NCBI RefSeq assembly: GCF_017377735.1
Contig: NZ_JAFVMH010000004.1
Span: 186,001-250,000 of the forward strand
Reading direction: 5' to 3'
Source of the DNA: Acetobacter garciniae
GTDB lineage: Bacteria; Pseudomonadota; Alphaproteobacteria; Acetobacterales; Acetobacteraceae
DNA: 64,000 bases
Part shown: positions 10,385-20,781 of the stretch, one piece after another
Position numbering within the stretch: the stretch's first letter is position 1
Layout: every line of letters starts with the position of its first letter
Notes under the pieces: model-generated
What the model saw: only the letters and a program-made list of their open reading frames with translations
Database searches by the model: none
Told to the model about the DNA's origin: nothing
Translations under genes and position numbers: made by a program

Positions 10385-11170
10385 TCAGGAAATCTTGGAA
10401 TCCACCACAAATTCTATATCGTCACGGCAGAACAGCACTTTTCCGTAAAGCAGGCGTTCGTCCTGACGCGTGAGATAGACATGTTCGGATTGCAGCACAT
10501 GACGGCTGCGGCTGAGTTCAAGATGTTTCATGACATCGACCGCTGTCTTCACGCAACTGATCTTGTTGATGATGCGATAAGGATGTTTTTCGATCGCACG
10601 CAGGAGTGACACGATAGGCAGGTTCGCCATCATGTCCGGGGTGACGACAGCGGCAAGGGCTGCGGCCATATAGCGTGTTTCATAAGCCAGGGGGTGGCCA
10701 TCCAGCACGCGAACGCGCTTGAACTGCAACACGCGCTCCCCCTCCGGAATATCGAGCCCCGCCGCCACGATGGCAGGGGCCGGGCAGATGTCATGCGCGA
10801 TCAGGCGGAAGGTCATGATCCGCTGGGTTATCAGCAGTTCGTCCTCGAACGCCACGGTCAGGTCATGGGCCAGGCGTTCGGCGGCGATAAAGGTGCCACG
10901 CCCCCGCCCGCGCACGACCAGCCCGTCGGATACCAGACGGTCCATCGCCTGGCGCACGGTCGCACGGCTGACACCGAAATATTCCATGCAGCGCGTCTCG
11001 GGCGGGAGCATATAGCCCGCAAGACGGTGGCGCCGGGCCTGGATCAGGGCGGCCATGGACGAGGCGATCTGGGCGTAAAGCGGTTCCGACAGGGACGGGT
11101 CGGGAATGGAAAGCTCGGACAAGGAGATTGTGCCACTCTCCCCTTGCGGAAGCGTACTCTTCTGTTTCAC
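10385..11170 (-). CDS. GntR family regulator, UTRA (HutC/PhnF) subfamily
   Basis: A 261-residue repressor-type protein. A winged helix with FGVSRATVRQAMDRL (about residues 66-80) and RGRGRGTFIA lies near the N-terminus; the C-terminal half is a UTRA ligand domain. HutC/PhnF-type members sense a metabolite of the pathway they control. It is the last gene of the leftward uptake cluster, 266 bases after the second permease, and is likely its regulator. Two inverted repeats in the gap upstream are candidate operators. The ligand is unknown; a nucleotide, ribose phosphate or pyridine acid would fit the neighbours. Confidence 0.88.
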   Translation of the reverse strand: MKQKSTLPQGESGTISLSELSIPDPSLSEPLYAQIASSMAALIQARRHRLAGYMLPPETRCMEYFGVSRATVRQAMDRLVSDGLVVRGRGRGTFIAAERLAHDLTVAFEDELLITQRIMTFRLIAHDICPAPAIVAAGLDIPEGERVLQFKRVRVLDGHPLAYETRYMAAALAAVVTPDMMANLPIVSLLRAIEKHPYRIINKISCVKTAVDVMKHLELSRSRHVLQSEHVYLTRQDERLLYGKVLFCRDDIEFVVDSKIS

Positions 11171-11436: not shown

Positions 11437-12183
11437 TTAGTGACGCAGCTTGTGTTCGCAATAGAGCAGCAGCGTATTGATGCCGACTGCCATGAACGCC
11501 AGGAAAAACCCCACGGCCAGGGTCACGGGCGTGTCACCCAGGTTGATGGCGTTCACCGCCATGAAGCCGAGCCCGCTATGGGACGCAAACATTTCCCCGA
11601 TCAGCACGCCCAGCAGGCAGAGCGCGACCGAGACACGCAGCGTTGCGATCATATCGGGCAGGATGGCCGGGACAATGACGAAATAGAACCGCTCGGCCGC
11701 GCCAAGCCGCATGACCCGGGCCGAACGCAGCAGAACTTTGCGCACACCCGCAACCAGGCGGCTGGTAATGAAATAGACCGGAATAACCCCGTGCATGACC
11801 CCGAAGGCCACCTTGGGGGCCATGCCCAGCCCGAAGAGTTCAAGCACGATGGGGTAGAGCGTGATCTTGGGCACGGTCTGGAAGATCATGAGCAAGGGGG
11901 CCAGATACCACGACAGAAGCCGTGAACTGCCGATCAGCAGGCCCAGGGCACCGCCCACGGCAATGGAAATGCCGCTGGCCAGCAGGAAAGACCGGCCGGT
12001 TGCCGCCGCATTATGCCAGAAATAGGCCTTGCCCATCAGGTGCAGCAATGTTGCCGCCACGGAAACCGGGCCGGGTTCGGGGTGGGGATACGCCCAGCAC
12101 GCAACCTGCCACAAAACCAGCACGGCCCCCATCAGCACGACCGGAGGGGCGACGGCACGAAAATGGGCCTGGATGGCGGTCAT
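11437..12183 (-). CDS. ABC transporter permease (SsuC/TauC family)
   Basis: A 248-residue inner-membrane protein with about six membrane segments and the BPD_transp_1 fold; the EAA-type loop is the RSARVMRLGAAERFYFVIVPA region. It is the last transport gene, two bases after the other permease stop, so the two probably form a heterodimer with the ATPase at 12947-13759. The family imports taurine, sulfonates, nitrate, pyrimidine precursors and similar small acids. Substrate here is unknown; linked nadC and PhnN/phosphorylase genes suggest a nitrogen heterocycle or nucleotide-related compound. Confidence 0.88.
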   Translation of the reverse strand: MTAIQAHFRAVAPPVVLMGAVLVLWQVACWAYPHPEPGPVSVAATLLHLMGKAYFWHNAAATGRSFLLASGISIAVGGALGLLIGSSRLLSWYLAPLLMIFQTVPKITLYPIVLELFGLGMAPKVAFGVMHGVIPVYFITSRLVAGVRKVLLRSARVMRLGAAERFYFVIVPAILPDMIATLRVSVALCLLGVLIGEMFASHSGLGFMAVNAINLGDTPVTLAVGFFLAFMAVGINTLLLYCEHKLRH

Positions 12184-12185
12184 GG

Positions 12186-12950
12186 CTATGCGCCCTCCCT
12201 TTTGACCGGTTCGGCGGCAATCATGTCGAAACCCAGCGTGGTGGCAGCGGCCAGCACAACCACGCAGCCGATATAGCCGTACATCGTGTCAGTATCGAAA
12301 TTGTCGTAGGCATAGGCGATCTGGTAACCGACGCCCGCATCCGACATGATGAATTCCGAAGCGATCACCCCAATGAACGCATAGGACACGCACAACCGCA
12401 GGCCCGACAGCAGCATGGGTGCCGCGGCCGGAATGCGCACATACATGACGTTCTGCAACGGTGTCAGGCCGAATACCCGGGCCGTTCGCACGATCGAACG
12501 CGACACGCCATCCAGCGCTGTCAGGGTCGTGGTGATCATGGCGACAATCCCGAGCATGATCGAGATCAGGATAATGGGCAGCCGCCCGCTTCCCGTCACG
12601 GTAATGAGGGCGGGATAGAAAATGAAGGTCGGCACCGCGTAGTAGCTGGCCAGATAGGGCTCCAGCGCAGCACGCAGCAGGCGTATGGGGTGGACGATCA
12701 TGCCTACGGCTATCCCCCCCGCCCCTGCGATCAGTGCCGCGATCAGGATATCGCGCAGGCTCAGCCATAAGGCCGCGCGGGAAGCAGACTGCCCCATGAC
12801 CGCGCACATATCATGCCAGATCGTGACGGGTGCGGGCACGATGCCCGTGCCGAGCAGGCCGATAGAACAGAACACCTGCCAGAGACCCACCAGTACGACG
12901 ATCAGCAGCAGACGCAGGGCATACGGTATGGCTGTCAGACCGGTCTTCAT
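12186..12950 (-). CDS. ABC transporter permease (SsuC/TauC family)
   Basis: A 254-residue permease with six predicted membrane segments and the EAA-type loop RTARVFGLTPLQNVMYVRIPA. The ATG at 12948-12950 overlaps the ATPase stop (ATGA); an in-frame extension upstream would run deep into the ATPase gene and is rejected. It is a paralogue of the permease just downstream rather than a duplicate: the sequences share fold and motif spacing but differ widely. Two permeases with one ATPase and one binding protein make a complete importer. Confidence 0.88.
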   Translation of the reverse strand: MKTGLTAIPYALRLLLIVVLVGLWQVFCSIGLLGTGIVPAPVTIWHDMCAVMGQSASRAALWLSLRDILIAALIAGAGGIAVGMIVHPIRLLRAALEPYLASYYAVPTFIFYPALITVTGSGRLPIILISIMLGIVAMITTTLTALDGVSRSIVRTARVFGLTPLQNVMYVRIPAAAPMLLSGLRLCVSYAFIGVIASEFIMSDAGVGYQIAYAYDNFDTDTMYGYIGCVVVLAAATTLGFDMIAAEPVKREGA

Positions 12951-13759
12951 GCGTTGTTCGCCGCCATATGGTGGTTGCTTTCGGCGCGCAGGGGGGCCCA
13001 GATCTCGCTCAGCAGGTCGCCATAATGCGGGCTGGAGACGACAGTGCTGTCGCGCTCCCGCGGCCAGCCGGTTTCCACCAGCTTGATCAGCCGGCCCGGC
13101 CGGGCGGACATGACGCCGATCCGGTCCGAAAGCATGACGGCCTCGTCCAGCGAATGGGTGATCAGCAGGATCGTGGCGTTGGTCTCGCGCCACAGCCTGA
13201 GCAGTTCATCGCCCATCAACAGGCGTGTCTGCTGGTCGAGCGCGCCAAAGGGTTCATCGAGCAGGATAAGGCTGGGGCGCATGACCAGCGTGCGCGCGAT
13301 ACACACACGCTGGCGCATGCCCCCCGAAAGCTGGGAGGGATAGGAGGTCCGGAACCGCCTGAGCCCCATGAAGTCGAGCGCATGTTCCACGCGGGCCGCA
13401 ATGTCATCACGCGCAAGGCCACGGCGCTTGAGACCGAAGGCAATATTGTTCTCGACCGTAAGCCACCCGAAGGACGCATCTTCCTGGAAAACGATGCCAA
13501 CGCCATCGGGCACCCCGCGAATGGGCTGCCCGTTCAGCAATGCCTGGCCTGCGGCAGGCCGCGCAAGGCCGGACAGAATATCGAGCAGGGTCGATTTGCC
13601 ACACCCCGATGGCCCGACGATGGAAAGAAATTCGCCCCGCCGCAATGTCAGGTCCAGGGGACCAAGCGCGTGAACATTGCCGCCCTTGCGGGTGGTGAAA
13701 CGCTGTTCGACCTGCCGCAATTCCACGCAGGGGACGTCTGTTTGTCCGTTTTCTGTCAT
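12947..13759 (-). CDS. ABC transporter ATP-binding protein (SsuB/TauB family)
   Basis: A 270-residue ATPase with Walker A GPSGCGKST, Q-loop FQED, signature LSGGMRQR, Walker B LILLDEP and switch His in ITHSLDEA. The VQEDASFGWLTV-type Q-loop region and the DEAV ending fit the nitrate/sulfonate/taurine group. It sits 16 bases after the binding-protein gene and overlaps the permease start by four bases. It energises import of the unknown ligand of this cluster. Confidence 0.92.
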   Translation of the reverse strand: MTENGQTDVPCVELRQVEQRFTTRKGGNVHALGPLDLTLRRGEFLSIVGPSGCGKSTLLDILSGLARPAAGQALLNGQPIRGVPDGVGIVFQEDASFGWLTVENNIAFGLKRRGLARDDIAARVEHALDFMGLRRFRTSYPSQLSGGMRQRVCIARTLVMRPSLILLDEPFGALDQQTRLLMGDELLRLWRETNATILLITHSLDEAVMLSDRIGVMSARPGRLIKLVETGWPRERDSTVVSSPHYGDLLSEIWAPLRAESNHHMAANNA

Positions 13760-13775
13760 GATCCGGAATATCGTT

Positions 13776-14753
13776 TCAGTTAAGGAATGATGAATTGACG
13801 GCGGTATTCCAGTCGATGTCGCCCTTCAGTTCGCCGATCAGCTTCAGCCCGTCGGCCGCGCGGTTCAGTTCCGTGGTGTCGATCGCTCCATCGCTCCACA
13901 TATGCGCCTTGACCATGTTGTCTATCGCAACACGGGCCAGTTCCGGCGGCATGTGGTACACCTCGGCCAGAATGGTCGCGGCCTCGGCCGGGGCGGCGTA
14001 AAGCCGTTCAACCGCCTTGCGGCGCTGGCCGATGATGCAGCGCAGGGTGTCAGGATGAGCACTTGCAAAGGCGCGTGTCGTAATCCCGACGGACATGGTC
14101 ATGGGGGGCAGGATGTCCTCGGCCCGGACAACGGTGCGGTAGTCGTCGCGCCTGCGAATGGCCAGGGGTTCGATCAGCACGGCGGCGTCAACCTCCCCGC
14201 TGTCCAGCATGGAAAGCCCCTGCACATACCCACCTGACGCCACCCGGTGCACGCTGGCTGGGTCTATGCCCTTGTGTTGCAGTTCCATGAGCAGCAGCAT
14301 TTCGGATGAGGCACGCGGCGTGGTGATGGCAACCTTGTGGCCCGCCAGGTCGGCCAGCGTATGGATCGCGCTGGTCTTGGTAGTGACGACCGACGCCCCG
14401 GCCGGGGTATCGGTCCCGACATTGACGATAATCACGTCCAGATGATGGGCGATGGCGGCCACGGCGGCGGGAAAGGCTACCTCGGCATAGGGCAGATCGC
14501 TCGCCATCATGTTGCGCACGGTGGACCCGCCGCCCGCCGAACCGATAATACCGTCAATATCCCCACAGGGCTTGAAAAGCCCGTCATGCAGGGCAACGGC
14601 GTATGGGGCGCCGTACATGCTCTGCCCCCATTGGGTGACGGAAATTTCCGCAGCCCGCGCCCCTGGCTGGAACAGCCCGCAACCCAGCAGAACAGCCCCC
14701 GCCACAACGCCACCGCGCAGGATGGCGGCGGCCGCTTGAATTGTCTGTTTCAT
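13776..14753 (-). CDS. ABC transporter substrate-binding protein (SsuA/TauA/NMT1-like)
   Basis: A 325-residue exported protein. Residues 1-35 form a signal peptide ending GARA; an LLGC stretch inside it could alternatively be a lipobox. The mature part opens EISVTQWGQSMYGAPYAVAL and contains the family features of periplasmic type-II binding proteins (an ADLAGHKVAITT-like segment and SGEVDAAVLIEP). It delivers the ligand to the two permeases downstream. The gene follows the fusion enzyme by 74 bases in the same direction. Its pocket residues do not identify the ligand; homologues bind sulfonates, nitrate, thiamine precursors or aromatic acids. Confidence 0.87.
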   Translation of the reverse strand: MKQTIQAAAAILRGGVVAGAVLLGCGLFQPGARAAEISVTQWGQSMYGAPYAVALHDGLFKPCGDIDGIIGSAGGGSTVRNMMASDLPYAEVAFPAAVAAIAHHLDVIIVNVGTDTPAGASVVTTKTSAIHTLADLAGHKVAITTPRASSEMLLLMELQHKGIDPASVHRVASGGYVQGLSMLDSGEVDAAVLIEPLAIRRRDDYRTVVRAEDILPPMTMSVGITTRAFASAHPDTLRCIIGQRRKAVERLYAAPAEAATILAEVYHMPPELARVAIDNMVKAHMWSDGAIDTTELNRAADGLKLIGELKGDIDWNTAVNSSFLN

Positions 14754-14827: not shown

Positions 14828-16897
14828 TCAACATTCCCTGATATCGAAACCATTTTCTTTACTGCTTTCATCAGCGGATTTTCCTACTCCCGCACTCGCG
14901 GCCATGTGAGCGGCGGCCTGTACGTCCGGCAGGGACGATCCCATGAGCGTGAACACGACCGTATCGGCCTCCACCCGATCACCCACGCTGGCGTGCAGGT
15001 CCAGCCCGGCGGAAAGATCGGTCGGGGCCCCCGCACGCCGCGCCAGGGTGGCAATACGCCAGCCATTGATGCCACGCACGACACCGGCCCGCCCCGCCCG
15101 AACGGGCAGGCGTACGGGCCCCGGGGCCACGGCAGGAACACGCGGCCCCTGGGCGTGGATAATGTCTTCGAACTTCGCCAGGGCGGCCCCGCTGCGCAGA
15201 ATATCGCGCGCGATCTCATGGGCTGCGGCGATCGTGGGCACGTTCGGGTCGAAGGCAATGATCTCGGCGGCGAAACACAACGCCTTTTCGCGCATGTCAG
15301 GCGGGGCTGCGGGATCTTCGGCCAGCACGGCGCGGGCGTCGCGCAGTTCCAGGGCCGGTCCTATGCCGCGGCCTATGGGCCTGCTGCCGTCGGTGGGCAT
15401 CGCCCCCACGCGCAGGCCCATCTTGTCCCCCACCGCTTCGAACAGTTCCGCCAGCAATGTCGCCTGGTCCAGGTCATGCACCTTGGCGAATGGGCCATAG
15501 GGAATGTCGATCATGACATGGGTGGACCCTGCGATCAGCTTTTTCGACAGGATGGAGGCCACAGACCAGCGGTTGGTTTCCAGGTTGAGCGGGCGTGTCA
15601 GGTCATTGACGATGTCGTCGAGCGGGGAATGCATCAGTCGGCCGTTCCAGGCAATGCACCCGCCTGTGCGGGCGACGACCTGCTCCATCTCAGCCATGCC
15701 CAGATCGACCCGGGCCACGGTTTCCATGGCCTCCGCCGTGCCGGAGGCCGAGGTAATGGCGCGCGAGGATGTCTTGGGAATAAGCAGGCCATAGGCCGCA
15801 ACAATGGGCACCACGACCAGGGTGATGCGACTGCCCGGCACCCCACCGAGGGAATGCTTGTCGACCACCATCTTTTCGGGCCATGTCATGGGCGACACAA
15901 GGCTTGCGCGGGCACGGGCAACGCGCGCGGTTTCCTCTATCGACATGTTGGGGATGATGGATACGAGAAGGGCTGCGACCTCGGCATCCGAATAGCGACG
16001 GTTCACGATATCGCGGAACAGGTTTTCGTATTCGCTTTCGCGCAGGACATGCCCCGCGATCCGCTGTTGCAGCAGTGACCGGCTTGGCGGTGCAGGTGCC
16101 CGCGCAATAAGCACCGGCGTGGCCTCGGGCAGCCCCAGAAAACGGAACCCGTCGTCCGACACGCCAATTTCATGCGCGCCGACAACCGATGGATCGTGAC
16201 ACATCATGGCCTGCGCGCAAAGGCTGCGCCCGGCGGCCTGGATTTCAAGCCGGTGGGCAGGTGGCGCATCGGTGGCCTTACCGGGCAGGAACACCACCGG
16301 TCCCCGCCCCGTCGCCACAGCCACGCGCCGCAGCCGCGGCCGGTCGGCTATGGCGCGAATGGTCGCGACCAGAGCGTTCACCCCGCTTTGCACGTCCGTA
16401 TCGTTGGAGACGTGAAAGACGCTGACATCGGCGGGCATGGGCAAGGGCTTGCGCGCCAGGCGGCTGGCTATGGCCTGCGCATTTTCGCGCCCCCGCGTGG
16501 CCAGCCGCCGGGCGATGGTTTCGTCACGGGCGGTGATTTCGATCACCACCAGATTGGCAAATTTCTCACGCAGGGCCGGGATATCGGCGCGCGATCCGTT
16601 TGCAATCACGCACCCGCCCTGCGCAAGGGCTGCGAACTGTTCGGTCCGCCAGCCATAGGACAGGCCATGCGCCTTCCAGCCATGTACAAGGGCCCCGCTT
16701 GCCATGAGCGCCTCGAACTCCTCCGCCCCGACACTTTCATGGCCTTCGGTTCCCACATTTTCGGGGCGGGTAATAACGCGCTGCGCAAAGGCAAAGCGCG
16801 TATCCTCACGCAGGGCGGCCCATGCGCCCGCCAGCAGCGTATCCTTTCCAACGCCGCTGGCTCCGACCACGACGCAGAAAATGCCGCTGCCCGTCAT
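14828..16897 (-). CDS. Fusion of PhnN-type ribose-bisphosphate kinase and AMP/thymidine phosphorylase-like enzyme
   Basis: A 689-residue two-domain protein. Residues 1-185 match PhnN, which phosphorylates ribose 1,5-bisphosphate to PRPP: P-loop GASGVGKD at 12-19 and an RVITRP strand. Residues about 195-689 match full-length archaeal-type AMP phosphorylase (the putative thymidine phosphorylase group), with DKHSLGGVPG at 346-355 and KTSSRAITS at 375-383. That enzyme turns a nucleoside 5'-monophosphate plus phosphate into base and ribose 1,5-bisphosphate. The product of one domain is the substrate of the other, so the fusion could make PRPP from AMP or another NMP. Its ATG overlaps the NadC stop (TGATG). 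Both domains look intact; the combined reaction is inferred and substrate is untested. Confidence 0.85.
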   Translation of the reverse strand: MTGSGIFCVVVGASGVGKDTLLAGAWAALREDTRFAFAQRVITRPENVGTEGHESVGAEEFEALMASGALVHGWKAHGLSYGWRTEQFAALAQGGCVIANGSRADIPALREKFANLVVIEITARDETIARRLATRGRENAQAIASRLARKPLPMPADVSVFHVSNDTDVQSGVNALVATIRAIADRPRLRRVAVATGRGPVVFLPGKATDAPPAHRLEIQAAGRSLCAQAMMCHDPSVVGAHEIGVSDDGFRFLGLPEATPVLIARAPAPPSRSLLQQRIAGHVLRESEYENLFRDIVNRRYSDAEVAALLVSIIPNMSIEETARVARARASLVSPMTWPEKMVVDKHSLGGVPGSRITLVVVPIVAAYGLLIPKTSSRAITSASGTAEAMETVARVDLGMAEMEQVVARTGGCIAWNGRLMHSPLDDIVNDLTRPLNLETNRWSVASILSKKLIAGSTHVMIDIPYGPFAKVHDLDQATLLAELFEAVGDKMGLRVGAMPTDGSRPIGRGIGPALELRDARAVLAEDPAAPPDMREKALCFAAEIIAFDPNVPTIAAAHEIARDILRSGAALAKFEDIIHAQGPRVPAVAPGPVRLPVRAGRAGVVRGINGWRIATLARRAGAPTDLSAGLDLHASVGDRVEADTVVFTLMGSSLPDVQAAAHMAASAGVGKSADESSKENGFDIREC

Positions 16898-17751
16898 CAG
16901 CCAGGCTCCGTCACGGCCTTGGGTTCGTCCAGCCCGATATCCACCGCCCGCGCAGACTGGAACGGCCGGCTGGACGACACGTAGTCCACCCCGGTCTGCG
17001 CCACGGCACGGATGGTCTCGAACGTGATGCCGCCCGATGCCTCCACCTTCGCGCGGCCGTTCACCACGCGCACGGCTTCACGCATGTCCTCGAGCGACAT
17101 GTTGTCGAGCATGATGATATCGACATCGGTCGCGACCGCCTCATGCACCTGTTCAAGCCGGTCGCATTCGACCTCGATCCGGGTCAGGGTGGGGGCCAGT
17201 GCCCGCGCCCGCGCCACGGCCGCCGTAATGCCGCCGCTGACCGCGATATGGTTGTCCTTGAGCATGATGCCGCTATCCAGCGCCAGCCGGTGGTTCAGGG
17301 CACCCCCGCAATAAGCCGCGTGTTTTTCAAGCATTCTCAGCCCCGGCGTGGTCTTGCGCGTATCCAGCAGCTTGACCCCCGTGCCGTCCAGTTCACGCAC
17401 ATAACGCGCGGTTTCCGTGGCGATGCCCGACAGGCGCTGGACAATGTTCAGCGCCGTGCGTTCGGCCGTCAGCAGATACTGCGCGGGACCGGTCACGCTG
17501 AGCAGGATATCTCCGCGCGCCAGGGTGTCTCCATCGCGGCAGCATGTCGTAACCTGGCATTGCGGCGCGTAACGCGAAAACACGGCGGCGGCGACATCCA
17601 CGCCGGAGACGGTCATGGCTTCCCGGGCGTTCATGACAAACGTTCCGATCGTTTCGGGTGCCACCATGAGTTGCGCCGTCAAATCGAACTGGCCGATATC
17701 TTCCATCAGCCAGGTATCGATCATCTTGAGAAGTGTAAAGTGGTCGTACAT
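16897..17751 (-). CDS. nadC: Nicotinate-nucleotide pyrophosphorylase (NadC/ModD family)
   Basis: A 284-residue quinolinate phosphoribosyltransferase-type protein. Key motifs are RTALNIVQRLSG, TRKTTPGLR (131-139), NHR (153-155), KDNH (165-168) and EASGGI, all as in NadC, which joins quinolinate and PRPP to give nicotinate mononucleotide, CO2 and pyrophosphate. The usual HRxGL reads HRLAL. It is not with nadA/nadB but in an ABC/TonB uptake cluster, one base overlapping the PhnN-phosphorylase fusion, so it may act on an imported pyridine acid or a look-alike. ModD, a NadC paralogue of molybdate operons, is the main alternative, but the binding protein here is not ModA-like. Confidence 0.85.
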   Translation of the reverse strand: MYDHFTLLKMIDTWLMEDIGQFDLTAQLMVAPETIGTFVMNAREAMTVSGVDVAAAVFSRYAPQCQVTTCCRDGDTLARGDILLSVTGPAQYLLTAERTALNIVQRLSGIATETARYVRELDGTGVKLLDTRKTTPGLRMLEKHAAYCGGALNHRLALDSGIMLKDNHIAVSGGITAAVARARALAPTLTRIEVECDRLEQVHEAVATDVDIIMLDNMSLEDMREAVRVVNGRAKVEASGGITFETIRAVAQTGVDYVSSSRPFQSARAVDIGLDEPKAVTEPG

Positions 17752-17817: not shown

Positions 17818-20187
17818 CTAGAAATGATAATCAAGGGTTCCGAAGAACTGGCGTGGCGCCCCAATGAACATCGACGCAAGGTCACCCGACAATGGAAAGC
17901 CGTTTTCGCCCAGCGTGCTGATATAGCGTTCATTGAACAGGTTATAGACATTGAAGCTGATTTTCAGGCCTTTGAGCGGGCGATAATGCCTGAACGTATA
18001 GGACAGTCCGGTATTGGCCACCCAGTAGGCCGGCACGGACGTATCGTTGACATAGGAGAAATAGCGTTTTCCGACATAGTTGGCGTCGAAATGCATGTTC
18101 ACGTCATTGATGTCGTAGGAAACGCTCGTCTTGTACATCCAGGACGGATAGCCGACAAGCTTCTTGCCCTTTACCGAATAGACCACGTTGGATGACGTAA
18201 TGTTGTCGTCGTAAACCGAATGGTTGTAGCTGACACTGTTGAAGATCGACAGATGCTTGACCGGGTGCAGGGTAACTCCCGCATCTATACCGTTCTGGGT
18301 CACGGACCCCACGTTCGAAACCGTGTTCTGCGGATCGAGACGGTTGCCCGAAGCAAGCTGCGCCAGGCGGTTATAGAAATTCACACGGTACAGGCTGAGG
18401 GAGGCCACGAGAAATTCCGACGTATACCGATAACCCAACTGGTAAACCCAGTCCCGTTCGGGGCGCAGCTTTTTTTGTTCGGCCAGGAATGTCGGTTGAT
18501 CGCCGGCACACCACACGCACGGCTTGCCATAGGAACTATAGGTATAGGCACGCATGTTTTCGGATATATCGAAATACAGCTCGTGATTTTTCAGGAATGT
18601 CCAGTTCCCCGCGAAATGCGGCAGGAAAGCCGCGGCCGATGTCAGGGAGCCGCTGGGAATGGAGGGTTCCTTGTTGATGACGGGATTGTTGTAGTTCCCA
18701 CCACCCGCCGTGGTCACGAGCAGGGACTTGAAACCCGCCCGGAAGGAAAGATTGGGAAGAACCCTGTAGACATCCTGAAGGTAGTACTGAAACGTATTGG
18801 TGTTGAAGTTCTGCCCCCAGCGTTCCGCAAAGGCCGGGCCATAGGTGTTCCACGGACCGGTGGTGAGCAGGGGTGCGCCCTGGCCGAGTGCGGGTTCGTT
18901 GTAATACACGCGCTTGTTCGTCCACCCCACGTTTTCGTACCAGATACCCGAACTGATCGTGTGCCGGTTGATCGCATATTGCAACCCGGAGGTAAAGCCG
19001 TAGCGATGCGTGACCGGGTTCTGCACCTGTTCGGAAAGGGGCGCGCCCGTGCCGGGGGATGGAACATACGGGTTGCCATATGTCCCGAATTCCGATGTGG
19101 ACTGCGCGTAGGCCACAGACTGCCAGCGCAGGCGGCTTGTCAGCGCGAAATCGAAATTCAGGCCACCCAGAAAATCCTTCTCGACCTGCCCTGCATCGTA
19201 ATAAGACACGTCCTTGGGGCTTTTGGTCGTGTTATAGCCGGGGGGATAGATACCTTGGGCGGCCTTGTAGGCTGCGGTATAATTCGGGTAATAGGAATCG
19301 ATATTCATGCCCAGATGGTTGATGATATCGAGCGAAAGATCCGAATAGCTGAATTCCGACAGGTCCGACCAGTCGAACAGAGCGGTAATCTTGCTATCCT
19401 GCCCGATGGGCTGGACAAGCTTTGCGTTCACCTGCTGCTGAAACTGCTCGCCCGCACCACGCCATTTCTGGGTGGAGGAACGCGCGTAGGAGACAAAGAA
19501 CTTGGTGCCGGTGGAGTTCAGCGCACCGCTATCGGCCCGCACATAGGTGCGATAGGTGTCGTAGCTGCCGAACATCTGCGATACCCGCCCCCCCGCCTTT
19601 TCAGACGGATCGGACGAGAAAAACCGCAGGCCGCCACCCAGTGCGGTCACAGACGGCAGATCCAGCGCCCCGGCCCCCTGCGAGAGGCTCATGGCCGAAA
19701 TATTGTCCTGCGTGATCGCGGAATTGATATCCAGCCCGTTATATTTGAGAAACGACTGGTCCCCCAGGGGAATGCCATCAAGCGTTACGCCGATCTGGCT
19801 CTGGTCGAACCCGCGCAGATACATGGAATTCGCCCAGGTATCCAGGCCCAGCGCGTCCGATGTGGTGAAATTCACCCCCGGGGTCGTTGTAGCAAGAATT
19901 TTGAAAGGACTTGTTCCTGACGTGAATTCTGACATTGTTTCGCGTGCGACGAACTGTTCCGTGCCGTGCGAGACACGATGCGAAGCATTGACGGAAATCT
20001 GTTCGGTTCCGCGGCCACGAAGTGCTTCCGCCTTCGAACGGTTGCTTTTGGCTTTATGCGCGGCCGGTGTTTCAACCGACGGCGATGATGTCGCGGCAAA
20101 AGCTGGCAACGGAAGCATCAAAATCGGTGTCAGTACGGAGCAGGCGGTAAGAACGGCGCTATGGCGCGCGACAGATGCGTGGCTCAT
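17818..20187 (-). CDS. TonB-dependent outer membrane receptor
   Basis: A 789-residue receptor: signal peptide at about 1-31 ending PAFA, a TonB-box-like EQISVNAS, plug domain (VTLDGIPLGDQSF, LSQGAGALDLPSVTALGG) and a 22-strand barrel ending in LDYHF with the usual terminal Phe. The ATG at 20185-20187 gives a good signal peptide; an upstream in-frame ATG adds 16 odd residues. It lies 66 bases ahead of nadC in the same direction and heads the cluster, so it probably brings the ABC importer's ligand across the outer membrane. It resembles receptors for small organic ligands rather than having clear siderophore features; the ligand is unknown. Confidence 0.9.
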   Translation of the reverse strand: MSHASVARHSAVLTACSVLTPILMLPLPAFAATSSPSVETPAAHKAKSNRSKAEALRGRGTEQISVNASHRVSHGTEQFVARETMSEFTSGTSPFKILATTTPGVNFTTSDALGLDTWANSMYLRGFDQSQIGVTLDGIPLGDQSFLKYNGLDINSAITQDNISAMSLSQGAGALDLPSVTALGGGLRFFSSDPSEKAGGRVSQMFGSYDTYRTYVRADSGALNSTGTKFFVSYARSSTQKWRGAGEQFQQQVNAKLVQPIGQDSKITALFDWSDLSEFSYSDLSLDIINHLGMNIDSYYPNYTAAYKAAQGIYPPGYNTTKSPKDVSYYDAGQVEKDFLGGLNFDFALTSRLRWQSVAYAQSTSEFGTYGNPYVPSPGTGAPLSEQVQNPVTHRYGFTSGLQYAINRHTISSGIWYENVGWTNKRVYYNEPALGQGAPLLTTGPWNTYGPAFAERWGQNFNTNTFQYYLQDVYRVLPNLSFRAGFKSLLVTTAGGGNYNNPVINKEPSIPSGSLTSAAAFLPHFAGNWTFLKNHELYFDISENMRAYTYSSYGKPCVWCAGDQPTFLAEQKKLRPERDWVYQLGYRYTSEFLVASLSLYRVNFYNRLAQLASGNRLDPQNTVSNVGSVTQNGIDAGVTLHPVKHLSIFNSVSYNHSVYDDNITSSNVVYSVKGKKLVGYPSWMYKTSVSYDINDVNMHFDANYVGKRYFSYVNDTSVPAYWVANTGLSYTFRHYRPLKGLKISFNVYNLFNERYISTLGENGFPLSGDLASMFIGAPRQFFGTLDYHF

Positions 20188-20781
20188 TGACGTGCATAAT
20201 CCCCCTAATGACGACCTGGTTAAGCGTTTGGCCAAGACCCATATCCCAGCCGGAAAAGAAAAGCAAAGTTATACAAAAGATATTTTCTATCTTAACGCCG
20301 CCGCAAAACATTTTTCTGGCGACAGTATTTTTGCCATGTCCGAATGTCCGGACAATATGATGATAGAACCCATACCGTGTCAAGTTCGAAATGAAAATTC
20401 ATGCGAACACATGTTAATTCGTTGATATTATTAATTAATTTTCGATCAGGAATCGAAGGGGTGTAACAGAGTCAAAGCGCGCAGCGGTGCGAAGCTGGTG
20501 AAGCCGGTCACAACCGCCCCATTCTACCGATCACATGGTATTGGACGGCACCTGCAAGGCTGTGGGGACTATATCCGGCGCTGATGGCCCGCACGACGTC
20601 AGGACGCGGCATACCCGCTCACGCCCATATCCAGACTGCGCCTGTCAGCGGGTTGCAATTTCAAAACCCCGTTAATCTGTCGATCTGCACAGAGGTTTTG
20701 CCAATCAGGATCTGTGAGCATTGTCATCGCACTTTTGTGGCCACGCCCGATGCGTCGGGAACGGGCGCCGATCATTCTGTA
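20188..20781. other. Intergenic region between the uptake cluster and the cox operon end
   Basis: No gene is supported in these 594 bases. Positions 20220-20450 are AT-rich and should hold the promoter of the TonB receptor cluster (reading leftward); they include a TGTCCGGACA palindrome. Positions 20662-20700 can fold into a stem of CAAAACC and GGTTTTG with an inner TCTGT/ACAGA stem, a possible end signal of the cox operon, although there is no separate T tract. Short open frames between 20450 and 20780 have no recognisable product. Confidence 0.5.
20337..20354. promoter_or_regulatory. TGTCCGGACA palindrome upstream of the TonB receptor
   Basis: TGTCCGGACA at 20345-20354 is a perfect 10-bp palindrome, preceded by another half site TGTCCG at 20337-20342. 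It lies about 160 bases upstream of the receptor start within AT-rich DNA. It is a candidate regulator site for the uptake cluster; no binding protein is identified. Confidence 0.35.

Follow-up and report, generated by a model that had tools for sequence, protein, structure and literature searches.

A protein of Acetobacter garciniae that fuses a PhnN domain to a putative nucleoside monophosphate (NMP) phosphorylase domain probably works together with NadC, encoded directly upstream, as a ribosyl-phosphate carrier cycle that turns imported quinolinate into nicotinate, a reading to which we assign a probability of roughly 0.7. Slightly less firmly, we favor the view that this cycle forms a catabolic front end for quinolinate with PRPP as the catalyst, in which one carboxyl group would be stripped from the substrate by attaching, and then removing, the same ribose phosphate. 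Quinolinate is an NAD precursor as well as a neuroactive product of tryptophan. In the proposed sequence of reactions, NadC would convert quinolinate and PRPP to nicotinate mononucleotide (NaMN), CO2 and PPi, the phosphorylase domain would split NaMN with Pi into nicotinate and ribose 1,5-bisphosphate, and the PhnN domain would convert ribose 1,5-bisphosphate and ATP to PRPP and ADP. The net reaction would be quinolinate + ATP + Pi -> nicotinate + CO2 + ADP + PPi, with PRPP serving in catalytic amounts as a reusable handle and each quinolinate costing one ATP and one phosphate. Fusion of the last two enzymes may keep the scarce ribose 1,5-bisphosphate near its kinase by channeling, though at three loci the halves are encoded separately, and in many carriers the nicotinate would enter nicotinate catabolism, making quinolinate a source of carbon and nitrogen. 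We infer these steps, with NaMN as the substrate, from the domain architecture, the linkage to nadC, neighboring transport genes of quinolinate type, nicotinate-degradation genes nearby and clade-specific residues. Pyridinium nucleotides have an energy-rich ribosyl bond, so phosphorolysis should run forward, and reverse use of the fusion as a nicotinate phosphoribosyltransferase is unlikely. We know of no described enzyme with nicotinate-mononucleotide phosphorylase activity.

The fusion gene lies at 14828-16897 on the minus strand of the 64,000-nucleotide stretch that we analyzed (henceforth termed the window) and was characterized by its open reading frame, family profiles, an AlphaFold2 model and a fold match. 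The frame is intact, running for 689 residues from an ATG at 16897 to a stop codon that ends at 14828. Residues 5-181 match the PhnN family TIGR02322 (NCBIfam) at 167.3 bits, above its cut-off of 156, and contain the P-loop GASGVGKD at 12-19; residues 190-670 belong to the 'thymidine phosphorylase' subfamily NF003338 (NCBIfam; 543.3 bits, cut-off 434), with the stretches DKHSLGGVPG at 346-355 and KTSSRAITS at 375-383. An initial sequence-only reading had described one protein that joins PhnN to an archaeal-type phosphorylase; the intact frame and scores above both profile cut-offs bear this out, and the three motifs are where it placed them, on a strand (minus) that it had omitted to give. The score against the AMP phosphorylase family TIGR03327 is 366.5 bits, under the cut-off of 535, for which reason we do not class the fusion as an AMP phosphorylase, and that against TIGR02645 falls narrowly short (431.6 bits, cut-off 434.6). 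By sequence and fold alike, the nearest solved structure is the AMP phosphorylase of Thermococcus kodakarensis, with 4ga5 top-ranked by fold (TM 0.90, normalized on the target). The AlphaFold2 model, built on a 34-row alignment, is confident for both domains (mean pLDDT 90.8, pTM 0.81). On the basis of this fold and of the KTSSRAITS stretch, which presumably binds the 5'-phosphate, we assign the C-terminal half as a predicted NMP phosphorylase rather than a nucleoside phosphorylase, and homology likewise supports the original idea that such a phosphorylase would supply PhnN by way of ribose 1,5-bisphosphate. The fusion is single-copy in its own genome, the one other match being weak and confined to residues 5-150.

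The architecture recurs widely. A scan of genome contigs that used the single protein as query returned no relative, whereas a query built from an alignment gave 182 relatives in species genomes. The best 80 of these, together with three plasmid records (out of 328 with any match, the three in which 80% or more of the query is covered), make up the 83 related loci considered below, which share kinship and include many Bosea; their genes were called with a gene caller trained on the hit region. At 80 of the 83 loci the two domains are encoded by a single fused open reading frame, and at the other three (L107, L111 and L113) phnN and the phosphorylase are separate, overlapping, adjacent genes, ordered nadC, phnN, phosphorylase. 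An assembly join or a frameshift between two genes, a possibility raised when the fusion was first proposed, is rejected by this recurrence. Aligned fused relatives are 39-50% identical to the window protein and occur in alpha-, beta- and gammaproteobacteria; shorter fusions of about 590-640 residues are found, for example, in Cupriavidus, in Caballeronia and at locus L033. In the family sample the fusion is rare: full-length matches were present in 2 of 200 sampled Acetobacteraceae genomes, the window genome included, and in none of three congeners, and at least 4 of 385 genomes of a class sample carry the fusion among the matches listed. Several individual cases deserve mention. One Caballeronia genome has two module copies on separate contigs (L084 and L104), and the fused copy at L118 was reported with an internal TAG, which may mean gene decay or an error in sequencing. 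In two alphaproteobacterial genomes (L160, L162) an unfused phosphorylase adjoins a divergent phnN-like gene, without nadC, and some Sphingobium copies adjoin a ribose-phosphate diphosphokinase gene.

The most constant neighbor is nadC, which encodes quinolinate phosphoribosyltransferase (carboxylating nicotinate-nucleotide diphosphorylase). In the window this gene lies upstream at 16897-17751 on the minus strand, its TGA overlapping the ATG of the fusion by one base (TGATG). The protein, which also matches QAPRTases in the PDB, scores 310.6 bits against TIGR00078, with a cut-off of 198.4; ModD was considered as its identity and rejected, with 99.3 bits against TIGR01334 and a cut-off of 178.85. 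Residues D130, R132, K133, R155, K165 and H168, which we take to be conserved substrate-site residues, are kept in all 85 rows of an alignment of module NadCs. In a search of the fused architecture for its gene neighbors, as had been proposed at the outset, 81 of the 83 loci were found to have nadC upstream in the same orientation, with a gap of at most 60 bases at 69 of these 81. The gap is wider at the three split loci, where phnN intervenes, and reaches about 1 kb at five Cupriavidus loci, one of which, L100, has an opposite-strand regulator in between. Two loci lack nadC: L074, whose contig runs out 418 bases upstream, and L097. The latter, in Acuticoccus (L097:10016-12025), carries the fusion in a genome that shows no nadC, here or anywhere else, and that contains a NicC relative (51% identity). 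Across the loci as a whole, the fusion is functionally tied to nadC. In a 99-row NadC tree, one branch (support 98/95) holds the 85 module rows, window included, plus L188, and the remaining 13 non-module copies fall outside it. L188, in the genome that also harbors L088, is a second module-type nadC accompanied by an SsuA-like binding protein and lacking the fusion; it perhaps serves NAD-only quinolinate salvage. FRG-domain proteins were seen near the module at 18 of 83 loci, often directly upstream of nadC (e.g., L032:9478-10287 and L057:7848-8708), an assignment made with PF08867 for the single protein tested.

In the window, the module is embedded in a same-strand gene run with a complement of putative transport genes. 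A TonB-dependent outer-membrane receptor gene (17818-20235, minus; Pfam PF00593 and PF07715) lies 66 bases upstream of nadC, and its product is a candidate outer-membrane porter for the substrate. Beyond the fusion, and likewise on the minus strand, follow genes for a periplasmic solute-binding protein of SsuA/NMT1 type (13776-14753; family profiles), an ABC transporter ATPase (12947-13759; PF00005) and two ABC permeases (12186-12899, PF00528, the frame being open to 13193 and the start guessed; and 11437-12183, PF00528). The final gene of the run (10385-11170, minus) encodes a GntR/UTRA protein, a candidate regulator by its family profiles. Promoter scanning gave no excess (4 found, 3.5 expected by chance), and 13 terminator-like sites were found against 8.7 by chance. 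Predicted proteins at window:20782-25170 presumably resemble terminal oxidase subunits. The best family of the GntR protein is PhnF, below that family's cut-off, and together with the PhnN family match this would hint, as the names suggest, at a role in phosphonate use through C-P lyase. However, no C-P lyase gene occurs among the nine neighboring window proteins scanned, nor did a frequent C-P lyase cluster emerge at the 83 loci, where a minority of clusters was identity-tested, and we regard the likelihood of a phosphonate role as negligible.

Solute-binding proteins near the module are common, being present at 61 of the 83 loci in four clusters: SsuA-type, including homologues of the window protein, at 24 loci, TctC at 13, and two TAXI types at 13 and 11. 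The TctC protein adjoining the module of Variovorax SRS16 matches Bug27 (2qpq) at 457 bits. According to excerpts of PMC11452294, Bug27 binds quinolinate in vitro with submicromolar affinity and prefers it, the bug27 gene adjoins nadC and phnN in Variovorax, where the arrangement was interpreted as NAD metabolism, and loss of bug69 did not abolish growth on quinolinate. The variety of neighboring transporters, of at least four kinds, and the separate branch of module NadCs with its clade-specific residues (e.g., F38, T135 and D159) would also suit a cycle in which NadC takes a ring acid other than quinolinate and a different decarboxylated base results. We consider such a substrate very improbable: the window NadC stands 112 bits above the TIGR00078 cut-off, the stretches DTRKT, NHR and KDNH are retained in every or almost every one of the 85 module rows, the adjoining catabolic genes are nicotinate genes, and the preference of Bug27 reported in the same excerpts is for quinolinate.

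These catabolic genes provide the link from the module to nicotinate as its likely product. With marker thresholds that we set ourselves, nicotinate-degradation markers were detected at 27 of 83 loci, of which 20 carry 6-hydroxynicotinate reductase and/or enamidase and 7 carry NicC, maleate isomerase, NicD or NicF, with no overlap between the two sets. Representative neighbors match structurally characterized enzymes: an enamidase matches 2vun (357 bits), a NicC (6-hydroxynicotinate 3-monooxygenase) 5eow (571 bits) and a maleate isomerase 4fq7 (410 bits). The 6-hydroxynicotinate reductase cluster, for which NCBIfam and Pfam yielded no family, was named from the 'hnr' annotation of plasmid homologues. 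Two further clusters, which have broad family matches, we take to be NicD and NicF; when both are left out, a marker is still present at 26 of 83 loci. At L060, nadC, the fusion, Mo-hydroxylase subunits, 6-hydroxynicotinate reductase and others share one strand, and the run at L108 comprises nicC, nicD, transporter genes, nadC, the fusion, maleate isomerase and nicF. The two routes of nicotinate degradation represented here are those described in excerpts of PMC9304392. The same marker test gave 0 of 34 at control loci, made up of 0 of 20 loci with unfused phosphorylases (20 of a longer list of such sites) and 0 of 14 loci of other nadC genes in module genomes (14 of 16 such genomes with a further nadC over the cut-off). 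The difference between 27/83 and 0/34 corresponds to a Fisher p of 2.4e-5 when loci are taken as independent despite shared ancestry.

At 56 of the 83 loci no marker occurs within about 10 kb, and none was seen at the further fused loci L193-L195, at L158 or in the window; 9 of 83 loci lack both a marker and a binding protein from the four solute-binding clusters. On the genome scale, a full-length enamidase relative was present in 20 of 20 module genomes, hand-picked among the loci and including 7 whose loci already had enamidase, versus 36 of 385 genomes of the class sample, and 3 of the 4 fused carriers listed in that sample are among the 36. A NicC relative of at least about 59% identity occurs in 26 of 33 module genomes that were likewise hand-picked among loci, one of these relatives being split in two. 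Of the 14 genomes covered by both the enamidase and the nadC search, 6 have enamidase no more than 25 kb from the module nadC, and 7 of 17 genomes have a NicC of 59% identity or more no farther than 21 kb from it. As a separate observation, a UPF0280 protein accompanies 6-hydroxynicotinate reductase at 16 of 16 loci (e.g., L060:15671-19235) and PF06684-type proteins do so at 13 of 16; both may be components of reductive nicotinate breakdown that have not been described before.

The phosphorylase half itself carries a signature that sets the fused clade apart. We compared 88 fused rows with 12 unfused bacterial relatives and the T. kodakarensis enzyme. Residues K347, H348, S377, T387, S448 and K452 are kept in all 88 fused rows, and K375, S377, S378 and R379 are shared by all 88 with T. 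kodakarensis. Other positions diverge. R330, invariant in the 88 fused rows, is M in unfused relatives and in T. kodakarensis, and in both of these N418 (87/88) is replaced by G, H423 (86/88) by L and N431 (87/88) by I. Position 420 is R or K in 86 of 88 fused rows, H or A in unfused relatives and A in T. kodakarensis, and R443, found in 68 of 88, is E in 11 of 12 unfused relatives and G in T. kodakarensis. Counted on the sequence alignment, N431 aligns with R202 of human thymidine phosphorylase, which we understand to bind the base. Judged from these alignments, the extra basic residues at or near the base site would fit a base that bears a carboxylate.

This signature bears on the more general alternative that the fusion recycles NMPs, turning AMP, CMP or UMP into PRPP through a channeled bisphosphate. 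The closest characterized relative is indeed an archaeal NMP phosphorylase, which acts on AMP, CMP and UMP according to excerpts of PMC9700705, and the K375/S377/S378/R379 motif is intact in every fused row. General recycling, however, predicts no link to nadC or to nicotinate catabolism, and it does not anticipate that six positions of the fused clade differ from unfused relatives with basic residues added, or that such neighbors are missing around those relatives. We therefore hold it to be distinctly improbable. The linkage to nadC, the association with nicotinate catabolism and the clade's own base-site residues together indicate NaMN and a catalytic PRPP cycle, and the substrate is thus likely to be NaMN, the product of the adjoining NadC, rather than AMP. 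Of the NMP-to-PRPP route originally envisaged, the part that stands by homology is the pairing of an NMP phosphorylase with PhnN; the part that gives way, given nadC at 81/83 loci, nicotinate genes at 27/83 and the base-site residues, is the net formation of PRPP from AMP.

A more serious alternative is that the module supplies PRPP for NAD synthesis, with quinolinate imported and NaMN made for NAD, and with the fusion providing NadC with PRPP drawn from another nucleotide. The linkage to nadC fits this scheme as well, excerpts of PMC11452294 tie nadC, phnN and the quinolinate-binding Bug27 to NAD metabolism, and the module nadC is the only one in 20 of 40 module genomes. Among these 40 genomes, hand-picked among the loci, a further nadC scores over the cut-off in 16 and below it in 3, and one genome has no nadC at all; in the 16, the module copy is therefore an additional one, which the NAD scheme leaves unexplained. 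It also leaves unexplained the nicotinate-degradation genes, present at 27 of 83 loci and at none of the 34 controls, and the base-site residues unlike those of AMP-type relatives, and it would have one nucleotide destroyed for PRPP in order to build another, with no evident gain. On balance we judge it unlikely as a general account, and prefer the quinolinate-to-nicotinate cycle.

For A. garciniae itself the case is less clear-cut, and the gene content of the window genome is the chief weakness of the cycle there. The genome has a single nadC match, that of the module, and searches found neither nadA nor a member of the NAPRTase family, the latter by TIGR01514 or PF04095, models of limited reach: since TIGR01514 matched only 5 of 14 control genomes, PF04095 was added, which matched 6 of the 14 controls and 7 of the 14 genomes searched. 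Given these gaps around a sole nadC, the window copy probably serves NAD synthesis too, and the module may feed NAD synthesis alongside, or in place of, breakdown. Enamidase was not found in the window genome, nor was maleate isomerase in a search run without a positive genome alongside. The sole clear nicotinate-degradation gene found there encodes a NicC relative (472 bits to 8uiq and 470 to 5eow, next best 180), located away from the module next to a predicted transporter gene.

The component families are known, while their combination and the pathway appear new; consistent with the novelty suspected for the fusion from the outset, the open-licence PubMed Central literature yielded no paper on the fusion or on a carrier cycle, and no gene set for bacterial quinolinate breakdown via nicotinate. 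If true, the cycle would be a degradative pathway made from a biosynthetic enzyme whose product bond is undone, and ribose 1,5-bisphosphate would gain a new physiological role. It would also mean that many Proteobacteria carry a wrong annotation for a protein whose name refers to phosphonates, and would correct the NAD-only reading of nadC-phnN neighborhoods.

Among known systems, T. kodakarensis TK0352 (4ga4, 4ga5) shares with the fusion its fold, its class of chemistry, the predicted product ribose 1,5-bisphosphate and the KTSSRAITS and WxG stretches. It differs in standing alone, feeding R15P isomerase and Rubisco (excerpts of PMC9700705), and in lacking R330, N418, R420, H423 and N431 of the fused clade. 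Unfused bacterial NF003338 phosphorylases are 39-48% identical in the phosphorylase half, yet have other base-site residues, and 20 of 20 loci lack nadC and nicotinate markers. The whole PhnN domain is present in the fusion above the TIGR02322 cut-off, but where known PhnN is a separate protein of phosphonate use, here it is fused and linked to nadC. The betaproteobacterial nadC-bug69 and nadC-phnN-bug27 neighborhoods of PMC11452294 have the same nadC-'phnN'-Bug27 order in Variovorax, with quinolinate as ligand; in the excerpted text the phosphorylase half goes unmentioned and the genes are assigned to NAD synthesis rather than to the breakdown of quinolinate. Finally, genes of both the Pseudomonas putida nic pathway and the enamidase route of Azorhizobium and Eubacterium barkeri adjoin the module, and whereas these known pathways start from nicotinate, the module would extend them backward to quinolinate.
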